Source: Planctomycetota bacterium (GTDB lineage: Bacteria > Planctomycetota > Planctomycetia > Planctomycetales > Planctomycetaceae). From it: a DNA stretch of 34,589 nucleotides. The position numbers were made by a program, and so were the translations under genes. The stretch covers positions 1 to 34,589 of the forward strand of contig JAHZKX010000070.1 in NCBI GenBank assembly GCA_022600195.1, written 5' to 3'. Positions within the stretch are counted from its first letter, which is position 1. The number at the start of each line of letters is the position of its first letter. Of the stretch, positions 1,340 to 25,065 are shown piece by piece. The notes under the pieces are model-generated. The model saw nothing but the letters and a program-made list of their open reading frames with translations. It did no database searches and was not told where the DNA came from.

Positions 1340-3490
1340 TTAGTGAATTAGAATGAATTCATTGGAATTGAGATAAGCCCAATAGACATCCTGGTAGCTT
1401 TGTTGAATTGCCGTCTGGGGCGGGACGTTGCGGGCAATCAGATACTTAGTTCGGTCTTTAATCAGGCGTTTCAGTTCAGATAACTCCCGAGAAGAAGGAT
1501 GTCGCGTCAAGGCGGCCAGGCTCAGTTTTTTAATTCTGTTATCAGGGCTACGTTCTTTCAGCGCCTGTGCCAGAATAGTCTGCTCCTGTTTGTAATCAAG
1601 ACAATGTTTAATCAATGGGCCATTCATCATCAGCAATGCCTGGGTGATCGTACCATCAAACGTAGTCGTTTCGTCATTCTCTTCATTATCGAGCGTATAG
1701 ACAAACTGCTGTAACCATCGATCTCGTTTCTGCATTTTATTCCATGCCGTAGAATAATCAGTAATGATCTGAGCCGGATTTGCAGTGACCAGCAAGGAGT
1801 CGTAAAGTTGTTCAGCTGTCATTTGCTTCACATACATGCGACTGAAATTAGGAGTACTGCCATCATCAGGATTATCTGAAACATTCTCATCCATGAAACG
1901 ACTACTAAGCCGATAGGCATCAGACAAACAAATCCACTGGATCAGTTGTTTGATGTCATATTTACTGTCAATGAATTGACTTGCTAGCTGATCCAGTAAT
2001 TCAGGATGTGTGGGTGAATTATGATAACCCATATCGTCAATCGGTCGAGTAAACCCATAACCAAAGAAATGAGCCCACATACGATTCACCATGGCTCGAG
2101 CCAACTGATTATTCTTACCTGACGTCATTAATCGTGCCAGCTGCTGACGTCGGTTTACACCAGCTTCAGAAGATACTTTAACTCCGGCAAATTTAGGATA
2201 GGCTGGCTGAACAAGGCCTTGTCGTGTTTCGTAGAAAGTCGTCCCTCCGTTAGAAACCGAAACCAACTCCAACTTCGGTGACTGCTTTCCCACAACGTCC
2301 ATTTTCTTGCTACGAACAACTTTTGTCTGCTTGAAGAAACTATTGATTTCCCAAAATTGACTTTGTGTTGCATCATTAAAAGGATGGTTATGACATTGAG
2401 TGCATTGAATTTGTGTCCCCAGAAAAAGGCGCGTCGTAATCGCGGTCGCGGGAACGGCTTCGTTATTCAAGTGTGCCAGGAGAAAATTAGTTGCGCCATT
2501 GGTTTCTGAATCGCCTTCTGCCGACACCAAATCATAAACCATCTCACTCCAGGGACGGTTTGCTGCAAAACTTTCAACCAGAAAATCCTGTAAAGCCTGC
2601 CGGTTGATCTCGCGAGAAGTCGAACGTCCAATTAACAATCGTGTCCAGATCGTCGACCAGTTAGTAACATAAGTAGGATCTTCGGTCAGATATTCTACCA
2701 ACCGTTGATGCTTATCAGTCTGCTTCGATGTCAAAAACTGTTTTGCTTCATCTGGGGTAGGAATACGACCTATAACATCAAGATACACACGCCGGACCCA
2801 CTCTTCATCGGTAGCAAAAGAGGAAGGCGCGATATTAGCTGCTTCCCACCCATCCTGTATCCGATGATTGATAAACGTAATGATTGCTTCATCTGAAGCG
2901 TCTGATGGTAGTTTCTCAGCTGGCGCTAACTGCTTTGGTCTGACAGCAATCAAAGGGCGCTCATCGTTTAACGCGACAGCATCCCCATTCTGAGATTGCA
3001 GCATCGGATGTTTTGCGGGCTCTATCTTAATTGATCTTGTGTGAGTCGATGGAACGGAAACCGGATTCTCGGAAATATGTCGGGGACCATTGGGTATCTT
3101 ATTCCGATCGATCGGAGTTTCGACCAGATTTGGGACATCATTCTGTTTCGTAAATGAATTGAATGCAACAACAAACAGCACCAACAAGCAGGTTGTTGCC
3201 AACCCCAGATTCAATTGTTTTCTTCGACTGATTGCAGGCTTCTGAATTGGTTTCGGTAATTCCGCTTCAGGAACAGGTATCGTAACCGGAATCATCGCAT
3301 CGGAGCCCAATCCCTGATCCCAGTAAAGTGTTCCATGTAGATGTGAATAATTCAAGTAGAATTGCATAGCATCAGGATCTGAAAGTACGATCTCTTCCAG
3401 ACGCATCTTATCCACGGTAGAGAGACGTTCTTCGCACAATGCTTCCATCAGCAAAGAAAGTTCGGCAAATTCCAGTTCTTTCTTACTCAT
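1340..3490 (-). CDS. membrane anti-sigma-like protein fused to a DUF1549/DUF1553 planctomycete-cytochrome-type ectodomain
   Basis: The protein has 716 residues. Residues 1-60 resemble the cytoplasmic anti-sigma/FecR-like N-terminus common in planctomycetes (LMEALCEERLS, then a DP-A-x-x-x-Y-L-x-Y-x-x-LHG-LYW pattern). A single membrane helix follows at about 94-112, then a low-complexity linker to about 200. A DUF1549 region comes next with a CTQCHNHP motif at 363-370, which is haem-c-like CxxCH, and DUF1553 runs from about 447 to the end (NRMWAHFFGYGFTRP). The start overlaps the end of the upstream ECF sigma gene by eight bases (ATGAGTAA), implying translational coupling. The inferred role is a membrane regulator that holds the sigma factor and senses through the extracytoplasmic domain. 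Haem binding is unproven, because a single CxxCH could be structural or bind another metal. Confidence 0.82.
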   Translation of the reverse strand: MSKKELEFAELSLLMEALCEERLSTVDKMRLEEIVLSDPDAMQFYLNYSHLHGTLYWDQGLGSDAMIPVTIPVPEAELPKPIQKPAISRRKQLNLGLATTCLLVLFVVAFNSFTKQNDVPNLVETPIDRNKIPNGPRHISENPVSVPSTHTRSIKIEPAKHPMLQSQNGDAVALNDERPLIAVRPKQLAPAEKLPSDASDEAIITFINHRIQDGWEAANIAPSSFATDEEWVRRVYLDVIGRIPTPDEAKQFLTSKQTDKHQRLVEYLTEDPTYVTNWSTIWTRLLIGRSTSREINRQALQDFLVESFAANRPWSEMVYDLVSAEGDSETNGATNFLLAHLNNEAVPATAITTRLFLGTQIQCTQCHNHPFNDATQSQFWEINSFFKQTKVVRSKKMDVVGKQSPKLELVSVSNGGTTFYETRQGLVQPAYPKFAGVKVSSEAGVNRRQQLARLMTSGKNNQLARAMVNRMWAHFFGYGFTRPIDDMGYHNSPTHPELLDQLASQFIDSKYDIKQLIQWICLSDAYRLSSRFMDENVSDNPDDGSTPNFSRMYVKQMTAEQLYDSLLVTANPAQIITDYSTAWNKMQKRDRWLQQFVYTLDNEENDETTTFDGTITQALLMMNGPLIKHCLDYKQEQTILAQALKERSPDNRIKKLSLAALTRHPSSRELSELKRLIKDRTKYLIARNVPPQTAIQQSYQDVYWAYLNSNEFILIH

Positions 3491-4049
3491 GACTCAAGGA
3501 CTCTGCTGCTATATAACGGTTAATACACTCATATAATGTACGTCTTACACGACCAAGAGATTGATAAACAGAATTTGCGGGACGCCCCAAATCCTCGGCC
3601 ACTTCCTTGCCTTGATGACTTCCCTGATAGCGTCTCTGGATTAACTCTCGATCTTTCTTTCGCAATTTGCCAAGACAGAAAGTTAACGCGTTGCGACGTA
3701 ATTCATAAATGTCCTGATTCTCTTTTACAGCTTCTGCTACCTGAGTAACGAATTCATCGCTGAATTGAAGCTTGTCACGGCTTCGTTTTTTCCGAAACTT
3801 TAAAACTTCGTAATGTGAAATTTGACAAGCCCAGGCAAAAAAATTAGTGCCAGCTTCAAACTGTTGTGCTTTTTTCCAGATGACCAAATTTGTATTTTGC
3901 AAAATCTCTTCTGCTTCTAATGGATGAGGAACCATCGAGAGAATATACAAATAAATGCGTCTCTGAGATTTGGTAAACAACGTGATAAATTCACGCCCTT
4001 GCTCAGATTCGGTATCAGGGAAAACAGGTTGGTCAGTCGAACTTGTCAA
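3483..4049 (-). CDS. ECF-type RNA polymerase sigma factor (Rhodopirellula/Verrucomicrobium type)
   Basis: This 188-residue sigma-70 family protein has only regions 2 and 4. Region 2 is at about 20-90 (AEEILQNTNLVIWKK, then NFFAWACQISHYEVLKFRKK). Region 4 is at about 120-180 (RELIQRRY, then a helix-turn-helix KEVAEDLGRPANSVYQSLGRVRRTL). No region 3 is present, as expected for ECF factors. The apparent start is a TTG with GGAA just upstream; an in-frame stop lies further upstream and no earlier ATG exists, so this start is likely but not certain. It overlaps the membrane anti-sigma-like gene. It probably has its own promoter in 4050-4111, after the terminator at 4112-4150. Its target promoters are unknown. 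Confidence 0.88.
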   Translation of the reverse strand: MTSSTDQPVFPDTESEQGREFITLFTKSQRRIYLYILSMVPHPLEAEEILQNTNLVIWKKAQQFEAGTNFFAWACQISHYEVLKFRKKRSRDKLQFSDEFVTQVAEAVKENQDIYELRRNALTFCLGKLRKKDRELIQRRYQGSHQGKEVAEDLGRPANSVYQSLGRVRRTLYECINRYIAAESLSHE

Positions 4050-4111
4050 AAGAATTCCAATTTCGTTACATCAATTTTTGTTTGCTCAGACTAATTTTTT
4101 GAATCGACATT

Positions 4112-4150
4112 AAAACAGCGGAAGCACCCTCGGCGAGCGTCCGCTGTTTT
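4112..4150 (-). terminator. strong hairpin terminator after the DUF1501 gene
   Basis: A perfect 11-base inverted repeat (AAAACAGCGGA at 4112-4122 and TCCGCTGTTTT at 4140-4150) encloses a 17-base loop. The A-run and T-run flanking the GC core make it a Rho-independent terminator readable on either strand. It lies 34 bases past the stop of the minus-strand DUF1501 gene and upstream of the ECF sigma gene. It therefore probably separates the DUF1549/DUF1501 unit from the sigma/anti-sigma unit. Confidence 0.8.
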
Positions 4151-4183
4151 ATGGCTTCATTGATCTCAATGACTGTTTCTAAA

Positions 4184-5458
4184 TCAGCCAATCAACTCCT
4201 TGATTGGAGTTCCACCATTGGCCAATTTCATGGGACGACCGCGTTTTGATGTATGTACGATATCCAATGGAATTCCCAACGCATGAGAAACCGTTGCCCA
4301 GAGGTCCCCTGGGAGATAACTCTTGCCTTCGATACCAATTCCATCACTGTCGGTTTTACCAACAGCCTGACCATTCTTGAGTCCACCACCACCAACCATG
4401 GCAGTCCAACTGGCAGCCCAGTGGTCACGGCCAACATTCTGGTTAATACGCGGAGTTCGACCAAATTCGCCCATACAGACAATCGTCACATCGTCCAACA
4501 TCGCACGCTGCTTCAAGTCGGTTACCAGTGCTGAAATTCCCTTATCCAACTGAGGCAGGTTATTATTCTTCAATGAGTCGAAGACACCCTGGTGCAGGTC
4601 CCAACTCCCAACGGAAGCAGATACTTCGATAAATGGTACTCCGACCTCTACCAGACGGCGAGCCAGTAATAAGCCTTTACCAAAGTTGCCGGTTCCATAG
4701 GCTTCTTTTAAAGCCGCTGGTTCCTGATCGACCTTGAATGCTTCCATTTGCTTGGAAGTCATCAAGTTAACTGCTTTCTTATAAATGTCCTTATGAGAAT
4801 TGGCAGATTCACCCCGCTTGGACTTAATGAATCCAGACTCCAAAACCTCCAGCATGTTGAGCCGTTGCCCTAATCGCTGTTGCTCCGTCATGTTGATTTC
4901 TGCATTTTGAATGGTTCCATCGCTGGAAACAACAAAGGGAGAATGAGCCATCCCCAAGAATCCGGCGCTCCCCCGACTACCACCAACCGAGATGAAAGAA
5001 GGGATATCCAGTTCTTTACGGCGAGAGCCTAATTCGTAACTGACGACCGAACCAAATGTCGGATGAACCACAGTCGGATTAGGAACATAAGCAGAGTGCA
5101 TGTAATAAGTCCCGCGGGCGTGATCCGCTTCACGCGTACTCATCGATCGAATCAGTGAAAGATCGCCCATGACTTGAGCGGTCTGGGGCATATGCTCAGA
5201 AATCTGCATGTCACCTTTCGTACTGATTGGCTTGAACTCTCCCCCGTTCTTTGAACCAGGTTTGAGGTCCCAGATATCAATTGTAGGTGGTCCGCCCGGC
5301 ATCCAAATCAGGATACATGCCTTTTGCTGTTTTTTAACCTGGCTGGCATTTGCTTCCAGATGAGACAGGAAGTGCATCGTGGGAATCGTTGTCGCAGCAC
5401 CCGCGACATGATTCAAAAAGTGCCGACGCGTCATTCCATATGGGTTGAGAATAGTCAT
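4184..5458 (-). CDS. DUF1501 protein with twin-arginine signal
   Basis: This is a 424-residue DUF1501 protein, an alkaline-phosphatase/sulfatase-like fold family. The N-terminus [15 protein letters not shown], with Arg11-Arg12, is a Tat-type signal, so export in folded form is expected. Family landmarks include [19 protein letters not shown], the [13 protein letters not shown] region and [10 protein letters not shown] near the C-terminus. An AGAAGG ribosome-binding site precedes the ATG by eight bases. DUF1501 genes almost always sit next to DUF1549/DUF1553 genes in planctomycetes, and the partner here is the gene at 5535-7181, 76 bases upstream in the same operon. The biochemical role of the pair is not established; a link to polysaccharide or extracellular substrate use is often suggested. 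Confidence 0.9.
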
Positions 5459-5534
5459 AACAAATGCCTTCTTTTGATTCTATTGTGGTGAAAATGTGTT
5501 TGTTTAAATTTTAATGCAGAACGCGATTTCGATT

Positions 5535-7181
5535 TTAATGATTGAAGATAAACTCATTTGAGTTCAACAGTGCCCAGTAAAGGTCCTGATAGGCGGATAA
5601 TTTATTCTTCGAACTTCCAACCAGTCTCTGGGCGCCTTTTATTTCACGACGATCCGGGTAACGGCTCAAAGTAGACAGAAACATTTTACGAATTTTTACC
5701 TGATCACTGCTCTTATCTAATAATAACTGATTCAGATAACTCCCTTTTTCGGCACTGATGGCATTTTTTGTGAGGTCGCCATTCATCATCATTAATGCCT
5801 GGGGAATGGTTCCGTTAAAAGTCGTGGAATCATCGCCTGAATCGCCATCAAAGGCGACCATAAACTGGCCCATCCATCGGCGACGTTGCGTTTCAGCCCG
5901 TTCCCAGTTGGACTGACCCGATTTGTGAGCACCAGTGGCTACGATTAACGAATCGTAGAGTTGCTCAGCCGTCATGTTCTTGACATACATATGAGAGAAA
6001 AGTGGAGATTCTCCTTTCTCAGGGCTGTCAATTTCATTCTTGCGACCAAACTGGCTGGTCAAATTGTATGCTTCACTATTACAGATCCAGCGTGCCAGTT
6101 GCTTGAGGTCATATTTTTTCTTGACCAGTTCTTCGGTCATCCTGGATAATAATTCTGGATGGGAGGCAGGGTTATGTGGTCCCATATCGTCAACGGGACG
6201 CGTAAACCCATAGCCTATGAAATAACCCCACATTCGGTTTACGATTGCTGAAGCGATTAATGGTTTCTCGCCTTTAACAATCAATTTGGAGAATTCCTTA
6301 CGGCGTTCGATACCCGCTTGCGGATCGACTTTTATGTTCTCAAAAATCGGATAGGCAACCTGCATCAACCCAGAACGTTTTTCATAATAAACAGGGCCAT
6401 TAAAGCCAGTGGAGACAACTTCGGAGTAATCGTCAACCTGACGTCCTGTTTTGGGATCAGTCTTACGGTGATTGATACGTCGCATCTGGCGGAAGAAGCT
6501 GTTGTATTCCCAGAATTGATTCTGTTTCCAGTCATTAAACGGATGGTTATGACATTGAGTACATTGTACCTGTATGCCTAAGAATAAACGTGTTGTTGCT
6601 GCTGTAACCTGGACCCCTTCATCATTGTTCTGCATCTGTGCCAACAAATAATTGACAGCACCATTTTCTTCAAAATGTCCTTCCGCAGTGACCAGATCCT
6701 GGACCACTTCGTTCCAGGGACGATTTTTAGCAAATGCCTCACGCAAAAACTTCTGCATCCCGCTACGACTTACGCGGCGAGGAGTACGGCGACCGATGAG
6801 CAAATTCGTCCACACATTCGTGAAGTTCTGCACATAAGCAGGATCGTCCAATAATTGATCGATTACTTTTGATCGTTTCGCGGTATCACGATCTTTGGCG
6901 AATTTTTCGACAGCTTCTGCGGAAGGAATTTGACCGATTAAATCCAGGTGAACACGTCGCAGCCATTCTGCATCAGTGGCAACTGGAGAAGGCTCTACTT
7001 CATTATCTTCCCAACCCTGACGAATTTGACTGTTGATATAGTCAATAAAAGGGTCAAATGATCCGGTAGAAAATGCCTTCGCCCTGCTTGCCGGCGGAGC
7101 AGCATCCGCAAGAGACACCAATGAACCGGCACAGATCGCAAAAGCAAAAACAACACATAGTTGTTTAGAAAAACGATGCAT
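5535..7181 (-). CDS. secreted DUF1549/DUF1553 (planctomycete-cytochrome-type) protein
   Basis: This protein has 548 residues. Residues 1-27 are a Sec signal peptide (hydrophobic CVVFAFAICAGSLVSL, cleavage near ADA). DUF1549 follows at about 45-230 and contains CTQCHNHPFND, with the CxxCH at 207-211. DUF1553 occupies about 290 to the end (NRMWGYFIGYGFTRPVDDMG). It is a clear paralogue of the ectodomain of the 1340-3490 protein, sharing long near-identical stretches such as QCTQCHNHPFND and the MTAEQLYDSL region. It lacks the anti-sigma segment and membrane anchor. The start has a GGAG site about nine bases upstream. It is first in an operon with the DUF1501 gene. The CxxCH may bind haem c, but this is not proven for the family. 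Confidence 0.9.
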   Translation of the reverse strand: MHRFSKQLCVVFAFAICAGSLVSLADAAPPASRAKAFSTGSFDPFIDYINSQIRQGWEDNEVEPSPVATDAEWLRRVHLDLIGQIPSAEAVEKFAKDRDTAKRSKVIDQLLDDPAYVQNFTNVWTNLLIGRRTPRRVSRSGMQKFLREAFAKNRPWNEVVQDLVTAEGHFEENGAVNYLLAQMQNNDEGVQVTAATTRLFLGIQVQCTQCHNHPFNDWKQNQFWEYNSFFRQMRRINHRKTDPKTGRQVDDYSEVVSTGFNGPVYYEKRSGLMQVAYPIFENIKVDPQAGIERRKEFSKLIVKGEKPLIASAIVNRMWGYFIGYGFTRPVDDMGPHNPASHPELLSRMTEELVKKKYDLKQLARWICNSEAYNLTSQFGRKNEIDSPEKGESPLFSHMYVKNMTAEQLYDSLIVATGAHKSGQSNWERAETQRRRWMGQFMVAFDGDSGDDSTTFNGTIPQALMMMNGDLTKNAISAEKGSYLNQLLLDKSSDQVKIRKMFLSTLSRYPDRREIKGAQRLVGSSKNKLSAYQDLYWALLNSNEFIFNH

Positions 7182-14406: not shown

Positions 14407-14738
14407 TGTAGAGTCATTTTTGAATTTTGGGGTGATCGAGATCATGGGAGTGCGACAACAAAGCACGTAAACAACACTCCCAGCCCTCAATCCAAGCTTG
14501 ACCAGGCATTTGAACGACAGTTAACCAGTTCACATCACTCGCAATTTCGTTGTTTCAAAGAAACAGCAACTCTCGTTTCCGGGTACACTCCAGACATTTT
14601 TCTATGGAATCGACTTTTCATAAACTTCATAGTGAAGTACACTTCCAGTCGAAATATTAATCTCAACAGCATACCTGCATCCCGTGTCTTCATACGAATT
14701 ATCACAAATACAGGTCGTGCGGCGGAAAGGAGTCTGCC
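14407..14738. other. intergenic region upstream of the YhaO/YhaN-like pair
   Basis: These 332 bases have no supported gene. An 8-base perfect inverted repeat, TGGGAGTG (14445-14452) and CACTCCCA (14475-14482), can form a hairpin with a 22-base loop about 40 bases after the receiver stop, without a T-run. AAGGAG at 14727-14732 is the ribosome-binding site of the next gene. The promoter of the YhaO/YhaN-like operon is expected between these. Confidence 0.45.
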
Positions 14739-16049
14739 ATGCCATTTGTGCCAACCCGTTTTATCCACGCAAGTAACCTGCGCCTCGACCATCAACCTCA
14801 GGGAGTCGGTGCGGTTTCCAGAGAATCGCAAACCCATCTCGAAGACTGCACCTTGGAGACCTTCGATGGAATCATCCAAGCGTGCCTGGAATATGAAATT
14901 GATTTCCTGCTTTTGACGGGCAACAGTTTTATTGACGAAGACTACAGCATACGCGCCCGAATCGCACTGATTGATGGATTTCAGCATCTGGCGTCTAAAA
15001 ACATACAGGTCTTCGTGATTCCCGGAGAACACGATCCCTTAAGTGCCTGGGATTTACAATCCAACTGGCCAGATAACGTTACGTTTCTCTCGGCTCAGGA
15101 TTATGACAGACTCGATGTCATCCACAATGAAGAAACAGTGGCGACGCTTCAAATTCTGGATGCCTCTCACTACAAACTACATCAGCCTTTAAAATTGGAG
15201 AAACGCAATCAGCTGTTTAATCAGCATAACCAGCGTGTATTTTCGATAGGCTGTATTACAACCACTTCAACGACAGATCCGGTGAATCAGCCATCTGAGA
15301 CAAACTTAACTGTTCCGCCTGATTCGTCAGAAGAAACAAACGAAGTGCCCGTTGACTATCTTGCACTGTGTAAAGGAACTCAGCGACACACATTCGAAAT
15401 GCAGCCGGGAATTGCCCACCATCCAGGTGCAGGCCAGGGACTCAACTTCGATGAATGTAAAAGCAATGGTGTTACGTTAGTGACAATCAATCCGGAAGAA
15501 CAATGGGAACATCGTCCGTTAAACGTCGCCGTCGTTCGCTGGTTAGTGATCGATTTAACACTGAATCCGGAAACGCCTCGCAATCAGCTCAAACAACTGA
15601 TGGAAGAAGCCCTGCTCACTCGAACTCCGAAGAACCATGAAAAGTTATGGATGGTACGTTGGAAAATCAAAGGGTCTGGTGAGCTCTTCGAGACTCTGCG
15701 AAGCTTCAAAAAACAGGCTGTCTTAAGCACTGAATTGGCAAACGAAACCAAAGACCGTCTGCCGTTATTGCTTGAACAATCTTTTTATCTTCAAGAAACA
15801 GACGCACTTTCCAGCAAAGAACAGTCTGCCTTGATTCAACTCTATCAGCAACAACTTGAAGAATTTCAGACTAAAACAGAATCACCATTGAACCAGTTAC
15901 TCACACAATCTGCTCAGCTTGATCAAACCTGGCAGCGACGTCTCAGCGCGTTAACAGAACAAGTGAATGAGCAACATGTTTTCAACAAGGCTATCCAAAA
16001 CGGACATAGCTGGCTTAGCATATCGTCGGACGAGGAAGTTCACATATGA
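14739..16049 (+). CDS. YhaO/SbcD/Mre11-like protein with degenerate metallophosphoesterase site
   Basis: This 436-residue protein aligns along its length with the YhaO-type DNA-repair exonuclease family, but the metal ligands are changed. Motif I, normally H-x-x-D-L-H-L-D, reads HASNLRLD (Asn13 for Asp, Arg15 for His). Motif II, normally GD-x-F-D, reads GNSFID (Asn62 for Asp). Motif III, normally GNHD, reads GEHD (Glu97 for Asn, His98 kept). Motif V, normally DY-x-ALGHxH, reads DYLALCKGT (Lys212, Thr214). The following P-G-x-x-QG region is retained as PGAGQGLNFDE, and a capping-like C-terminal domain follows. Nuclease activity therefore looks lost. AAGGAG lies six bases before the ATG. The stop overlaps the next start by four bases (ATGA), so it is made together with the ATPase and may be a structural partner. 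Confidence 0.75.
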   Translation: MPFVPTRFIHASNLRLDHQPQGVGAVSRESQTHLEDCTLETFDGIIQACLEYEIDFLLLTGNSFIDEDYSIRARIALIDGFQHLASKNIQVFVIPGEHDPLSAWDLQSNWPDNVTFLSAQDYDRLDVIHNEETVATLQILDASHYKLHQPLKLEKRNQLFNQHNQRVFSIGCITTTSTTDPVNQPSETNLTVPPDSSEETNEVPVDYLALCKGTQRHTFEMQPGIAHHPGAGQGLNFDECKSNGVTLVTINPEEQWEHRPLNVAVVRWLVIDLTLNPETPRNQLKQLMEEALLTRTPKNHEKLWMVRWKIKGSGELFETLRSFKKQAVLSTELANETKDRLPLLLEQSFYLQETDALSSKEQSALIQLYQQQLEEFQTKTESPLNQLLTQSAQLDQTWQRRLSALTEQVNEQHVFNKAIQNGHSWLSISSDEEVHI

Positions 16050-19000
16050 AAATCACCAGAATCCACGTCGATCAATTTGGAAACTGGAAAGACCTGACTC
16101 TTGCTCCCCTGAATGCGGGGATCAATGTATTTTATGGTCCGAATGAAACCGGTAAATCAAGTTTAATGCGCATGATTCGCGGCATTCTTTATGGTTTTCA
16201 CCAGGAGAAAATTCAGGCACGTTCCCGTGTTTCCGATGCCGTTCCCTGGTCAGGCTTGTTAGATATACAACATAAAGGCCAACGTTACGAAATCCGCCGA
16301 AAGACCAACTCCAAAGTAAATGGTCATTTTTGGTTCCAGGGAGAATCGAAGGGGACTTCCAGCCAGGATCTGCTCACATCCCTGCATGCCGGCGTGAATG
16401 AAACCGTATATGAAAATATCTTTGCCATCGGCTTAAATGAATTACAGGAACTGGGGACCCTGCACGGCGATCAGGTAGCGCAACACATTTACGGCCTCTC
16501 TTTGGGGCCGGAAGGGCAGTCCATTCTTGATGCTTCTGATGAATTATGTCAATCACAACAAAAGCTGCTCAGCAACAACTTCAAAACCGGAAAATTGGTT
16601 GATCTATATCAGCGGCTTGATGATGTGAATTCCAAACTCGAAGATCTGAAACAGCAGGCAGAGCGTTTTTTCAATTTGACGGGCGAATTACAGAAATTAC
16701 GCTCTGAATCAGACAGCCTCAAAAAACGCAAAGCAGGATTACAATATCAGATCCGGGGGCATCGTTTTCTGGATCGTGTCTGGAGACCCTGGCAGGAAGT
16801 ACAAACTCTGCGTCAGAAATTAAAACAACTACCCATCATTCATAATTTTCCAGAAAATGGTGTCGCCTTACTGAATGAATACGACCAGGATTTGAAACAG
16901 CTCGAAGGTAAGCAAATAGAACTCGAAACAGAGATCCAAAGACTCAATAAAGAAATTGAGCGCTACGAGTCAGCCAATGATTTGCTCAATTTTGCTCCTG
17001 ACATTCAAAGTCTGTCTGACCAGAAAATCTGGATAGCCGATCTGGAACAGCAGCATCAGCAAGGTGAATCTCAGAGAATCGATGTAGAACAGGAATTAAA
17101 CAAGCATCTCACGCAGGATCTGACTTTGAGTGACATCAGGCAGATTCAGACAACACCCGATAATAATCAATGCCTCATTCAGGCAGCACGCGCTTATCAA
17201 CTTGCCTGCACGAAACGCAAAAATGCACATCAGCGTTATAAAAAAGTTTCCCGGAAATATCAGCAAACATTAGTCCAACTACAGGAACAATCAAGCGAGT
17301 TACTTAATGGGAATTCGATTGAACAAGAAATGCAAAGAGCCCGCGAACGAATGAAACACCTGGAACGTCTCAGCCAGTTGCGGGTTCGGGAGTCTGAAAT
17401 TCTCACTCGCCATGAAGCGATTCAAGAACAGTTGTCGCGACTACGATCTCACGCACGTATCCCCAGTTGGGCTAAAAAATCCTTATTTGGTTTTGCCCTG
17501 GCGGGAATGCTGTTGGTTGTCGCCGGCTTATGGCGTGGTGTTTCAGATGCGGTTTTCGTCGGTTTGATTTATTGTCTCTCAGGAATGTTTTTAGGTGGAA
17601 TTGCCTGGGCTCTTAAAAAACATTATGAAATTGATATCGACGATCAAGCAGAAGAATTACAGGATGAAAGCCGGACGTTAGAGGTTCACTTACGAGAAAC
17701 ACAACAGGAAATCGAACTACTGCTGGAAGACGAATTCTTTGCCCTCAAAACAATTACTGAAGGTCACTCGCTAACCAGCCATAGACAGCACAGCAATATT
17801 CCTGCCCTCAATTTCAACGAAGAAAACATTCTCCGTACAGATTTGCTGCATGAACTGGCTCTCAAAATCAGTCAACTGGAACAGTTGAAAACCGAGCAAG
17901 AACGTGCACAAAAAACACGTCAGCTACTCGTAAAACTGAGAAATCGTTCTCAGGAAATACAACGTCAATTTAGCAGCAAGCGGCACGACTGGTGTGAATG
18001 CCTCAAACAATTAGGTTTAACTGAAACGCTGAAAACCAATGAAGCATTTCAAATGTGGCATCGAGTTTCTAATGTGAATTTATATGCGAACCAGCTCGAT
18101 CAGATAAAACGTCAAATCAAACCGACAGTTGAACTAGTCAACCAGTTCAACCAGCGCGTACGTGACTTAGGGTTACGTATGGACCGCAGAAACCATGATT
18201 TCAATAAACCGTTCGATGTCATCGCAGAATGGGAACGCGAACTCAACACACTCTCCGTGCATCAAAAGGAGTGCTCTCGCCTGCGAAAAGAAGAAAAAGA
18301 ACTAAGACTGCAATCAGACTCCATCCAATTAAATATTCAGGAACTGAAGCAGAAACGGTCAAGCCTGATGATTCAGGGCAGCGCAGCAAATCGCGAAGAA
18401 TTCGTCCAACGAGCAACCTCTCTTGAAGAACGGACCCTGATTGAAAATCTCCTGGAAGATGCACAGAGTGAATTGGAACATATCAGCCGCACCGAACAGG
18501 AAATGGCCATTGTCGAAGAAGATCTGCTGAATTTCAATCTGGATGACAACACCGAGCATCTCGAAATGCTGAATCTGGAACTGGAAGACATAGAGCAAGA
18601 TCTGGTGAGAACCGCCGAAAATATGGGTCGGCTAAAACAGGAATTTCAAAACGCCAAAACCGATCGCAGCTCGGCTCATTTGCGTTTTGAACGAGAACAG
18701 ATTCTCCAACAATTAAAACAGATCAGTACAAACTGGTTCGCAAATCAACTTTCAAAAACGGGATTGAAGCAGTTACGTCTAGAATATGAACGAACCTGTC
18801 AACCAGAGACATTGGCGATTGCTTCTGAATATCTTAGCCAACTAACTAATGGGAAATACACAAATATCTGGACTCCTCTGGGTGAACAGTTCCCCAAAAT
18901 TGACGATCAACAAGGGCACACGCTCACCGTTAGTGAGCTCAGCAGTGGCACGCGGGAACAACTCTTTCTGGCAATCCGCCTGGCAATGGTAGAGCGTTTT

Positions 19001-19780
19001 CGTAATAACGGTGTAGAGCTCCCCATGATCCTGGATGACGTGCTTGTTAATTTTGACCAGGAGCGAACGATCGCCGCTATTAAAACTTTAAATGCCGTTG
19101 CTGAAAAAGGACAGCAAATACTGTTCTTCACCTGCCATCTGCATCTATCTCACCTGTTTGAAGAACATGGTGGCTCTCCCATCTTACTACAGGATACGAA
19201 GACTCAGCCCACTACAACAACTTCCTTGACGCAGTTGACTCCCGAAATTGAACGAAAAACCAAAAAAGAAGTATCCCACGAGCGACGAGCATTTCGCAGA
19301 GACAATTCGCATGATGCTTCATCCTGTCTCAGCCCGACGATCCCGCCATTTTATCTGAATCGTTCTATGCCCATAGAATCAGCCCCGTCCATTGGCGCCA
19401 AAACAGCACATCGACTGGAAAGAATTGGCATCTTTACTATTGATGATTTTCTGGAGTGTAATCCCGAATTCGTCTCCGGAAAGTTGAAGAGACGCCACAT
19501 CAACAAACAGAAAATTCGTCAATGGAAAAAGCAAGCGAAGCTGGTTTGCTGCATTCCTGGTTTACGAGGTCATGACGCACAGGTTCTGGTTGCTTGCGGC
19601 TTTATTGAGCCCAGTGCAATCGCACGATCTTCACCGGATGAATTATTCGAAAAAGTACAGGCATTTGTAAATACTTATGAAGGAGAACGACTTCTCCGAG
19701 GTGCTAAAAAGCCGGACTTCAATGAAATCACAGACTGGATCAATTGGTCTCAACAAGCCAGAGAACTACATGCCGCTTGA
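16046..19780 (+). CDS. YhaN/Rad50-like ATPase with membrane hairpin and C-terminal DUF4332-like domain
   Basis: This 1244-residue SMC/Rad50-type ABC ATPase has an N-terminal head with Walker A GPNETGKS at 31-38. Long coiled coils follow (about 170-470 and 530-900). The C-terminal head carries the signature LSSGTREQ (about 963), Walker B MILDD (about 993-997) and a switch His in FFTCHLHL. Where Rad50 has a zinc hook, residues about 479-523 form two closely spaced membrane helices, as in YhaN. After a polar linker (about 1055-1105) a 137-residue domain resembles DUF4332 helix-hairpin-helix proteins (SIGAKTAHRLERIGIFTIDDF, then CIPGLRGHDAQVLVACGF). Bacterial YhaN is typically under 1000 residues, so this tail is an addition. 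It is translationally coupled to the YhaO-like gene. The inferred role is a membrane-tethered DNA-binding or DNA-repair ATPase. Confidence 0.8.
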   Translation: MKITRIHVDQFGNWKDLTLAPLNAGINVFYGPNETGKSSLMRMIRGILYGFHQEKIQARSRVSDAVPWSGLLDIQHKGQRYEIRRKTNSKVNGHFWFQGESKGTSSQDLLTSLHAGVNETVYENIFAIGLNELQELGTLHGDQVAQHIYGLSLGPEGQSILDASDELCQSQQKLLSNNFKTGKLVDLYQRLDDVNSKLEDLKQQAERFFNLTGELQKLRSESDSLKKRKAGLQYQIRGHRFLDRVWRPWQEVQTLRQKLKQLPIIHNFPENGVALLNEYDQDLKQLEGKQIELETEIQRLNKEIERYESANDLLNFAPDIQSLSDQKIWIADLEQQHQQGESQRIDVEQELNKHLTQDLTLSDIRQIQTTPDNNQCLIQAARAYQLACTKRKNAHQRYKKVSRKYQQTLVQLQEQSSELLNGNSIEQEMQRARERMKHLERLSQLRVRESEILTRHEAIQEQLSRLRSHARIPSWAKKSLFGFALAGMLLVVAGLWRGVSDAVFVGLIYCLSGMFLGGIAWALKKHYEIDIDDQAEELQDESRTLEVHLRETQQEIELLLEDEFFALKTITEGHSLTSHRQHSNIPALNFNEENILRTDLLHELALKISQLEQLKTEQERAQKTRQLLVKLRNRSQEIQRQFSSKRHDWCECLKQLGLTETLKTNEAFQMWHRVSNVNLYANQLDQIKRQIKPTVELVNQFNQRVRDLGLRMDRRNHDFNKPFDVIAEWERELNTLSVHQKECSRLRKEEKELRLQSDSIQLNIQELKQKRSSLMIQGSAANREEFVQRATSLEERTLIENLLEDAQSELEHISRTEQEMAIVEEDLLNFNLDDNTEHLEMLNLELEDIEQDLVRTAENMGRLKQEFQNAKTDRSSAHLRFEREQILQQLKQISTNWFANQLSKTGLKQLRLEYERTCQPETLAIASEYLSQLTNGKYTNIWTPLGEQFPKIDDQQGHTLTVSELSSGTREQLFLAIRLAMVERFRNNGVELPMILDDVLVNFDQERTIAAIKTLNAVAEKGQQILFFTCHLHLSHLFEEHGGSPILLQDTKTQPTTTTSLTQLTPEIERKTKKEVSHERRAFRRDNSHDASSCLSPTIPPFYLNRSMPIESAPSIGAKTAHRLERIGIFTIDDFLECNPEFVSGKLKRRHINKQKIRQWKKQAKLVCCIPGLRGHDAQVLVACGFIEPSAIARSSPDELFEKVQAFVNTYEGERLLRGAKKPDFNEITDWINWSQQARELHAA

Positions 19781-23043: not shown

Positions 23044-24093
23044 CTAGGTTGCAGAAGTCGATTCCCTTTCAGGCGTGGCTATTGAATCTCTCATCTTGGT
23101 GTCCGCCTGAACGTTTTTCAGCTCGTAATAATCCATCAAACCAATATTTTTTGTGCGAAACGCATCGGCAATCGCCTCAGGAACTTTCGCTTCCGCCAAC
23201 ACAACCTTCGCCCGGTTTTCCTGGGTCAATGCTACCATTTCCTGTTCTCGGGCCTTCTGATCAGCACGGCGCTGCTCTGCTTTCGCTTGAGCAACACGCA
23301 TTTCTGCTTCTGCATGATCAGCCTGCAATCGCGCACCAATGTTTTCACCCACATCTATGTCGGCAATGTCAATCGAAACAATTGTGTAAGCCGTCTGTTT
23401 CTCAAGGCCTTCATCCAGTACGATCTGTGAGATCTTATCAGGATTTTCAAGCACCTTCTTATAAGACTCGGTCGAACCGATGGCTTGCACTATTCCCTGG
23501 CCTACGCGAGCAATCACGGTTTCTTCCGTTGCACCACCTACCAACTGTTTTAAGTTCGTTCGCACGGTGACGCGGGCACGTACATTCAACTGAATTCCAT
23601 CGCCGGCCACAGCGTCCAATGTGCTGTTACTTTTTCGTGGATCCGGGCAATCAATCACTTTGGGATAAACGCTCGTTCGTACCGCATCCAGAATGTCCCG
23701 CCCCGCCAGATCGATTGCCTGAGCGGCCTGCCAGTCGAGCTCAATCTTAGCACGCTGTGCAGCAATTAATGCACGAATCACATTTGGCACATTTCCACCA
23801 GCCAGATAATGGGCTTCCAGATCCCGCGTGGAGATATCATAGTGACGAGTGACCCCTGCTTGAATCGCCATAATTTTACAGCGGACAATGATCGTCGGAT
23901 TCACTTTTTTTATTGTCATAATGACCAGATTTGGAAAGGAAATCTGAGCATTCGTCATTTTGCACTGCACCCATAAACCAGCATATCTGGCAAATACGGC
24001 GAAAAAGACCAACACACCAAGAAACACAACAATTCCGACAATCCAGGTAATTGTCGAAGTATTTTCGGCTGCCAAAAGATTCAAGGCGTTCAT
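23044..24093 (-). CDS. floA: flotillin-like protein FloA
   Basis: This 349-residue protein has an N-terminal membrane-inserting hydrophobic segment at about 15-42 ([20 protein letters not shown]), followed by an SPFH/PHB-like domain with the FloA-specific stretches [20 protein letters not shown] and [21 protein letters not shown]. An Ala/Glu-rich coiled coil follows ([20 protein letters not shown]). Length and sequence fit the FloA (UPF0365) family, which scaffolds functional membrane microdomains. The upstream NfeD gene is the usual partner of bacterial flotillins and supports the call. An AGGA site precedes the start. Confidence 0.93.
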
Positions 24094-24234
24094 ACTGGCT
24101 TTCCTATCCTAAGAAAAATGTAGATCCAAGGTTGTTCTCAGTCTGCTGAATCTGTCTATTAAAATTCATTGATGTCGACTAATTGATGATTGTAAAGAAA
24201 ATTCTTCTCATCATCCAGAGACTACTTAGAATTA

Positions 24235-24831
24235 TCAGGATTCCGGGATTTCAAAATCAAGCCTGTCATCTGTTGTAGAATCACTCAATTGAGCGGTTTC
24301 CGAATCTGATTTTGACTCTTCGGCGGGAACTTGTTTTAACACCTTCACCACCAGCCTGGCTCCTTCCACAGCAATCACTTCTACGTCCACCTGAGATTCT
24401 ATTACCATCCCCTGACTTTCACAGTGGAGTCTTTCATTATTAACGAGTACAAACCCGCTGGGGTTCAAAAGAGTTTGTGTTTTTCCAATTTTACCTAGCA
24501 GTGAACGCAGATGTTCAGATTCTTCCTTGAAACCGGTTACCTCTTCCAGTGTGGGAACCTCGTGGATAATTTTTTTCCCCCAGGTCGTGTTGGGAAAGAA
24601 TCTGACTGCAAAACCCAGTGTCGTTGGTATCAGAATCACCACACCAGCGATGTAAGACCACCAGAGGCTGGGGTTTGTATCCCACCAGGCAAACCAGGCA
24701 GCCCAGATAGCTGACCCCAGGCTTAACAAAGCCAGTACTGCAATAATCCCCCCTGAGGGAATAAAAATCTCTGCAACTAACAGGATCAATGCTACCGCTA
24801 ACGCGAGGATTGCAATCAGTGAATAATCCAT
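24235..24831 (-). CDS. NfeD-like membrane protein
   Basis: This gives 198 residues from the ATG at 24831; an in-frame ATG at 24930 would add 33 residues that look like leader. Three membrane helices at about 5-25, 28-48 and 57-78 are followed by a cytoplasmic OB-fold at about 120-170 (LLGKIGKTQTLLNPSGFVLV, then VIAVEGARLVVKVL), the NfeD architecture. The acidic, Ser-rich tail ends EIPES. It is 141 bases upstream of floA in the same direction; NfeD/flotillin pairs work together in membrane microdomains. It is not the long NfeD form with a serine protease domain. Confidence 0.87.
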   Translation of the reverse strand: MDYSLIAILALAVALILLVAEIFIPSGGIIAVLALLSLGSAIWAAWFAWWDTNPSLWWSYIAGVVILIPTTLGFAVRFFPNTTWGKKIIHEVPTLEEVTGFKEESEHLRSLLGKIGKTQTLLNPSGFVLVNNERLHCESQGMVIESQVDVEVIAVEGARLVVKVLKQVPAEESKSDSETAQLSDSTTDDRLDFEIPES

Positions 24832-25065
24832 TAGATCAATAGACTTTCCATGTGTTGTCCTTCTCCCGTTTGTCTCAAACTGGAAAAGTACAATCCTGAG
24901 AAGAAACCAAATAGAAACTTTGAAGCGCATACCTAATTACAACAGCATCTTAAGACGCTTCACACCTATTGTAACTGCTTTAAAAAGCAAGGCAAGACGC
25001 GAAAGGAAATATCCGGCTCTCGATGTGCTTCGTAAAAAAGCCGATCTGAGGCAACTCTCGGTTGC

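Follow-up and report, generated by a model that had tools for sequence, protein, structure and literature searches.

The DNA-break repair machine Mre11-Rad50, like SbcCD and YhaO-YhaN, joins a protein of Mre11-like fold to an SMC-type ATPase bearing Walker and signature motifs, and the two proteins are encoded by adjacent genes. We identified a pair of this kind in the window, a stretch of 34,589 nucleotides from a contig (JAHZKX010000070.1) of a Planctomycetota bacterium. Unlike in the described pairs, its YhaO/Mre11-type member, here called pseudo-YhaO, has all seven metal ligands replaced. We propose, with a probability of about 0.6 and on the strength of sequence comparison and structure prediction, that an ancient duplication of YhaO/YhaN (Mre11-Rad50-type) gave rise to this pair, and that its Mre11 subunit is a structural pseudo-nuclease, serving as a tether or gate without cutting.

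Roles of Mre11 that do not need cutting are known, as set out in one published account (PMC6315862), which also reports that Mre11-Rad50 promotes tethering when closed in its ATP-bound state, that activation of Tel1/ATM does not depend on Mre11 nuclease activity, and that Mre11 dimerisation matters. Another (PMC13402864) reports that Mre11 stimulates the Rad50 ATPase. The B-subunits of eukaryotic DNA polymerases are inactivated phosphoesterases that serve the polymerases and carry an OB domain; PMC4996933 describes them as having an Mre11-like fold, with all catalytic residues lost, and as acting now as a scaffold. However, pseudo-YhaO is bacterial and linked to an SMC-type ATPase, and the two would have separate origins. 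A search of titles and the openings of abstracts, with partial coverage of the literature, found no description of a nuclease-dead bacterial Mre11/YhaO subunit. What is new is a deep, inherited bacterial pseudo-nuclease branch of Mre11-Rad50-type machines, with apparent half-site intermediates and active sisters.

The metal site of the YhaO-like protein

Pseudo-YhaO retains the framework of YhaO, as a sequence-only reading of this DNA had claimed: sequence comparison and a predicted model give it an Mre11-type phosphoesterase and capping-domain fold (VIA-align 2). Its Pfam Metallophos match (18 bits) lies below the curated cut-off of 21.5. On the basis of Mre11 structures, we take seven residues to be metal ligands, and the motif III histidine (His98) not to be among them. 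Written in order, with that catalytic histidine in brackets, the active relatives have D, H, D, N, (H), H, H, H and the window's protein has N, R, N, E, (H), T, K, T; in the alignment 0/7 ligands are kept. The replacements that had been described (N13, R15, N62, E97, K212 and T214) are all real, but the loss had been put at five ligands and takes in all seven, the motif IV histidine having become T174. This last is the least certain assignment, with a mean model confidence (predicted local distance difference test, pLDDT) of 60 around motif IV. A profile search of the PDB aligns motifs II, III and V directly with those of Thermotoga Mre11.

The claim that only His98 remains is correct for the window's protein but does not extend to its relatives. 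The residue is Ser in the sister Gimesia loci L045, L046 and L048, and it is His in just 33 of 89 aligned rows of clade A, the group to which the window's protein belongs. The motif III histidine is required for both exo- and endonuclease activity of Mre11 (H85S; PMC8824468).

The number of ligands across homologues is two-peaked. All seven are present in 67 of the 188 aligned rows and none (64) or one (30) in 94, with 27 rows between (five or six in 10, three or four in nine, two in eight), and this two-peaked loss is more than chance would produce. The 89 clade A rows, which include some near-copies, consist of 64 proteins chosen irrespective of their ligands and 25 loci. The proteins were taken from 68 rows (67 matches and the query), from which the canonical sequences P0067 and P0068 and the fragments P0029 and P0030 were dropped. 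The loci were defined by having two ligands or fewer, and canonical loci by at least five, so the group counts are given partly by construction. Close homologues with normal ligands were looked for, and none was found in the clade: neither the first nor the second metal site is intact in any of the 89 rows.

The ligand columns of clade A have a mean entropy of 2.77 bits (39 rows, thinned to under 60% identity). Random sets of seven were drawn from 25 further positions that active relatives conserve, and one of 20000 such sets was as variable. Other positions are newly fixed in the clade, namely W308 (88 of 89 rows), T115 (81), W104 (80) and H227 (79). The relaxation of the ligand columns together with these new fixations suggests that the site was released while other surfaces gained new constraint.

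Ancestry and the probable order of ligand loss

A maximum-likelihood tree of 71 rows, calculated with the ligand columns removed, gathers the 27 degenerate rows into a single clade (100/99), which splits into clade A (16 rows including the window's protein, 100/100) and clade B (11 rows, 100/99). This tree was made without L134, L135, L137, L138, all 18 P rows and near-copies, and also without some rows that were long or whose placement was poor, among them L090, L113, L133, L142, L153 and L156. The partner ATPases were aligned separately in a quick tree that includes the last six and is scored by the Shimodaira-Hasegawa-like approximate likelihood ratio test (SH-aLRT) only; they form one 33-row clade (95) with clade A nested within it (19 rows, 99). 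Judged from these comparisons, the predicted non-cutting form is old and is inherited as a two-gene pair.

Pseudo-yhaO is under purifying selection. The ratio of nonsynonymous to synonymous substitution rates (dN/dS) is 0.27 against a 92% identical relative, and 0.07 and 0.09 in the sister pairs L045-L046 and L042-L043; at greater distances the comparisons approach or reach saturation.

Ligands were grouped into metal site 1 (D13, H15, D62 and H214) and metal site 2. Both sites are lost in clade A. We compared a clade B-like set of 115 proteins, consisting of the best 120 of 592 matches to profile A2 minus five active ones and not placed in the tree. Among the matches listed, which carry names such as Rubripirellula, Novipirellula, Maioricimonas and unclassified Pirellulales, all site 1 ligands are kept in 63 of the 115 and site 2 is complete in none, with N97 in one and H98 in two. 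These proteins had been sorted by the absence of H212, so that the H212 column is circular; the N97 and H98 columns are not. Just two of the 19 clade B loci that were read have a full site 1. The metal centre was apparently taken apart stepwise, the second site presumably going before the first.

Site 1 without site 2, as seen in many clade B-like proteins (P0069-P0188, L071 and L108; 63 of the 115 proteins), may be a one-metal form.

The gene pair, its ATPase and its occurrence

The layout of the locus (Table 1) is the one that had been read from the sequence, with a strong ribosome-binding site, a full-length frame and a four-base overlap with a Rad50/YhaN-like gene that is intact in its Walker A, ABC signature and Walker B motifs. 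In all nine other Gimesia loci examined, the pseudo-YhaO frame is open and the ATGA overlap is kept. Among relatives with a genome record, an uncultured Gimesia is the closest found (92% identical); those that carry species names include Gimesia fumaroli, G. algae, G. aquarii, G. panareensis and G. chilikensis. Databases label these relatives 'putative metallophosphoesterase YhaO' or 'exonuclease SbcCD subunit D'. In 32 of 32 clade A and B loci pseudo-yhaO is accompanied by a linked YhaN-like gene, which lies downstream and on the same strand in 25 and on the same strand in the remaining seven. Beyond Gimesia it is the only neighbour common to these loci within the flanking DNA examined, and a wider operon was rejected.

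The window's YhaN protein differs from Rad50 and SbcC in that it has no CxxC zinc hook and instead carries a hydrophobic hairpin, located midway between the ATPase heads where Rad50 has its hook. It also has a C-terminal DUF4332 domain, which is extra compared with Mre11-Rad50, SbcCD and YhaO-YhaN. This domain is present in the clade B partners L088 and L141 and absent from the partners L050, L061, L090, L084, L071 and L101.

All 25 clade A partners have a central hydrophobic segment of this kind (mean hydropathy at least 1.72), as do all 12 partners of clade B type that come from other families. The active planctomycete YhaO/YhaN paralogues (for example L093 and L101) resemble the window's pair in full-length homology and gene arrangement, and sometimes occur with a pseudo pair in one genome (G381, G283); unlike it, however, they keep all seven ligands. 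Their partners also lack the segment, as none of the 28 found for this 33-row active clade reaches 1.6 (highest 1.54). Other active YhaN proteins have it in 14 of 15 cases, the exception being an incomplete protein. The simplest reading of this distribution, which reflects few events, would be that the hairpin is ancestral, was kept in the pseudo line and was lost in one active line.

The window's family also contains a second, still more degenerate YhaO-like line (L088, L129, L141, L142, L144, L145 and L156). Its YhaN partners keep Walker A and the signature, have no central hairpin, and carry DUF4332 in two of those tested.

An active YhaO, scored as a match to profile A3 above 380 bits, occurs in 35 of the 74 genomes of a class sample. 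Each of the 19 genomes that this sample holds from the window's family yielded a clade A gene, which was read, and four of them have an active YhaO; all nine genomes of family f2 carry an active copy as well as one of clade B. In an overlapping family sample of 150 genomes the pseudo form (a place that scores 199 bits or more with the pseudo profile and is not an active one) occurs in 120 and active YhaO (E 1e-60) in 63; both forms are present in 52 of the 120 and the pseudo form alone in 68, with ligands read for some places and the top candidates scored in each genome, so that absences are not proofs. Gimesia genomes have the pseudo form in 11 of 11 and active YhaO in one of 11. Searches of the window's genome for active YhaO matched only the window's own gene (52.8 and 43.9 bits), with nothing at E 1e-60, and the best match to the SbcD model TIGR00619 reached 23.5 bits against a cut-off of 77.65. 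The same genome holds a small SbcCD-like pair (L170; G000 contig C83, about 61110-63003, minus strand), consisting of a 318-aa metallophosphoesterase with motifs intact by eye beside a 486-aa AAA_23 protein with one CPTC.

Table 1. Positions in the window of the two genes and of the sites discussed in the text
Feature	Position	Strand	Basis
Ribosome-binding site AAGGAG	14727..14732	+	read directly; ends six bases upstream of ATG
Pseudo-YhaO/Mre11 gene	14739..16049	+	open frame, 436 aa, ATG start
Motif I: Asp to N13, His to R15	14775..14783	+	alignment
Motif II: Asp to N62	14922..14924	+	alignment; register with Thermotoga Mre11
Motif III: Asn to E97, His98 retained	15027..15032	+	alignment
Motif IV: His to T174	15258..15260	+	alignment; low model confidence at site
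Motif V: GHxH to C-K212-G-T214	15372..15380	+	alignment
H227, newly conserved in clade A	15417..15419	+	79/89 rows
ATGA overlap (stop of pseudo-yhaO, ATG of yhaN)	16046..16049	+	read directly
YhaN/Rad50-like SMC-type ATPase, 1244 aa	16046..19780	+	AAA_27 and AAA_23
Walker A, GPNETGKS	16136..16159	+	motif read
Central hydrophobic hairpin, residues 481-516, putative membrane anchor	17486..17593	+	hydropathy scan
ABC signature, LSSGT	18938..18952	+	motif read
Walker B, MILDD	19025..19039	+	motif read
C-terminal DUF4332 (helix-hairpin-helix-like) domain	19385..19747	+	Pfam, 68.6 bits

Elsewhere in the window, on the minus strand, a flotillin-like FloA gene adjoins that of an NfeD-like protein (23044-24930), and a DUF1501 protein is encoded between two PSCyt2/PSD1 proteins (1340-7181).

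Possible functions of the pair

The idea of a conserved pseudo-nuclease subunit in an SMC-like pair, put forward from the sequence, is upheld by the single clade, the tight two-gene unit, the intact ATPase motifs, purifying selection and the Mre11 fold. The subunit may serve as a scaffold, DNA-end binder or regulator. In the mechanism we propose, a pseudo-YhaO dimer would join two YhaN heads, bridging and gating them, and ATP binding and hydrolysis would be coupled to the opening and closing of a DNA-holding clamp. With the hairpin at the coiled-coil apex in the membrane, the clamp would hold DNA (ends, forks or loops) there. Pseudo-YhaO would not cut, and cutting would be left to other enzymes. 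The role that we prefer is the tethering of DNA ends or forks, while other nucleases cut. More tentatively, an ancestral membrane-anchored cutting machine may have split in planctomycetes into a soluble active cutter without the hairpin and a membrane-anchored non-cutter, which lost its metal centre stepwise and would now tether or organise DNA at the membrane in the manner of an SMC complex, in many genomes of the family with no active YhaO alongside.

Several results weigh against a tethering pseudo-nuclease of single origin. In a quick tree of 123 rows the degenerate label needs three changes and not one, because the long-branch canonical SbcD-type sequences L134, L135, L137 and L138 fall beside clade B. 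The weakest constraint is a dN/dS of 0.40 in the sister pair L044-L047, which suggests that constraint is looser on yhaO than on yhaN. The YhaN partner is probably anchored in the membrane through its hairpin, but this is read from hydropathy, and the peaks in the window's hairpin are modest (1.77 and 1.72). In addition, the central segment is found in none of the seven clade B partners of the window's family (f1), which suggests that the hairpin is not essential to pseudo-nuclease pairs.

The dN/dS of 0.40 and the relaxed ligand columns could also indicate a decaying pseudogene or a sequence error. We reject this explanation, as the sequence-only reading did, and hardly any weight is left to it given the open, conserved frames in Gimesia, the recurrence of the substitutions in other genomes, the depth of the clade and the newly conserved residues. 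It is improbable that pseudo-YhaO is still an enzyme, with a metal or catalytic site rebuilt in non-canonical form and involving, for example, H10, D17, H227 and H228. In the loop that follows motif V, the newly conserved H227 does stand beside H228 (present in 51 of the 89 clade A rows), and H10 and D17 are present in 87 and 85 of the 89 rows. However, active relatives keep these two just as well (51 of 51 and 48 of 51), so that they need not mark a new site, and the old ligand columns vary freely.

We also consider it rather unlikely that the pair recruits, loads or restrains another nuclease as a regulator or partner rather than tethering DNA. The sampled genomes with both forms and the small SbcCD-like pair of the window's genome would fit such a role, but the 68 genomes with no active YhaO do not, and no neighbouring nuclease gene is common to the A and B loci. 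A Lamassu-like or other anti-phage defence complex is very unlikely. The window's YhaN scores 66.3 bits with one LmuB model, but the active YhaN partner L101 scores 73.8 bits, which marks the score as generic; pseudo-YhaO has no PADLOC match, and no linked effector is shared across the A and B loci. Defence genes are typically patchy in distribution, unlike this pair with its presence throughout the window's family in the class sample.

These results suggest that the name 'exonuclease SbcCD subunit D' is misleading for clade A. If pseudo-YhaO is the tethering subunit that we propose, the pair would represent a lineage that has, in nature, abandoned the cutting site and retained the two-gene machine. 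With active sister pairs, the half-site proteins of clade B and a series extending to full loss, the role of an Mre11 subunit for a Rad50-type motor without nuclease becomes testable.
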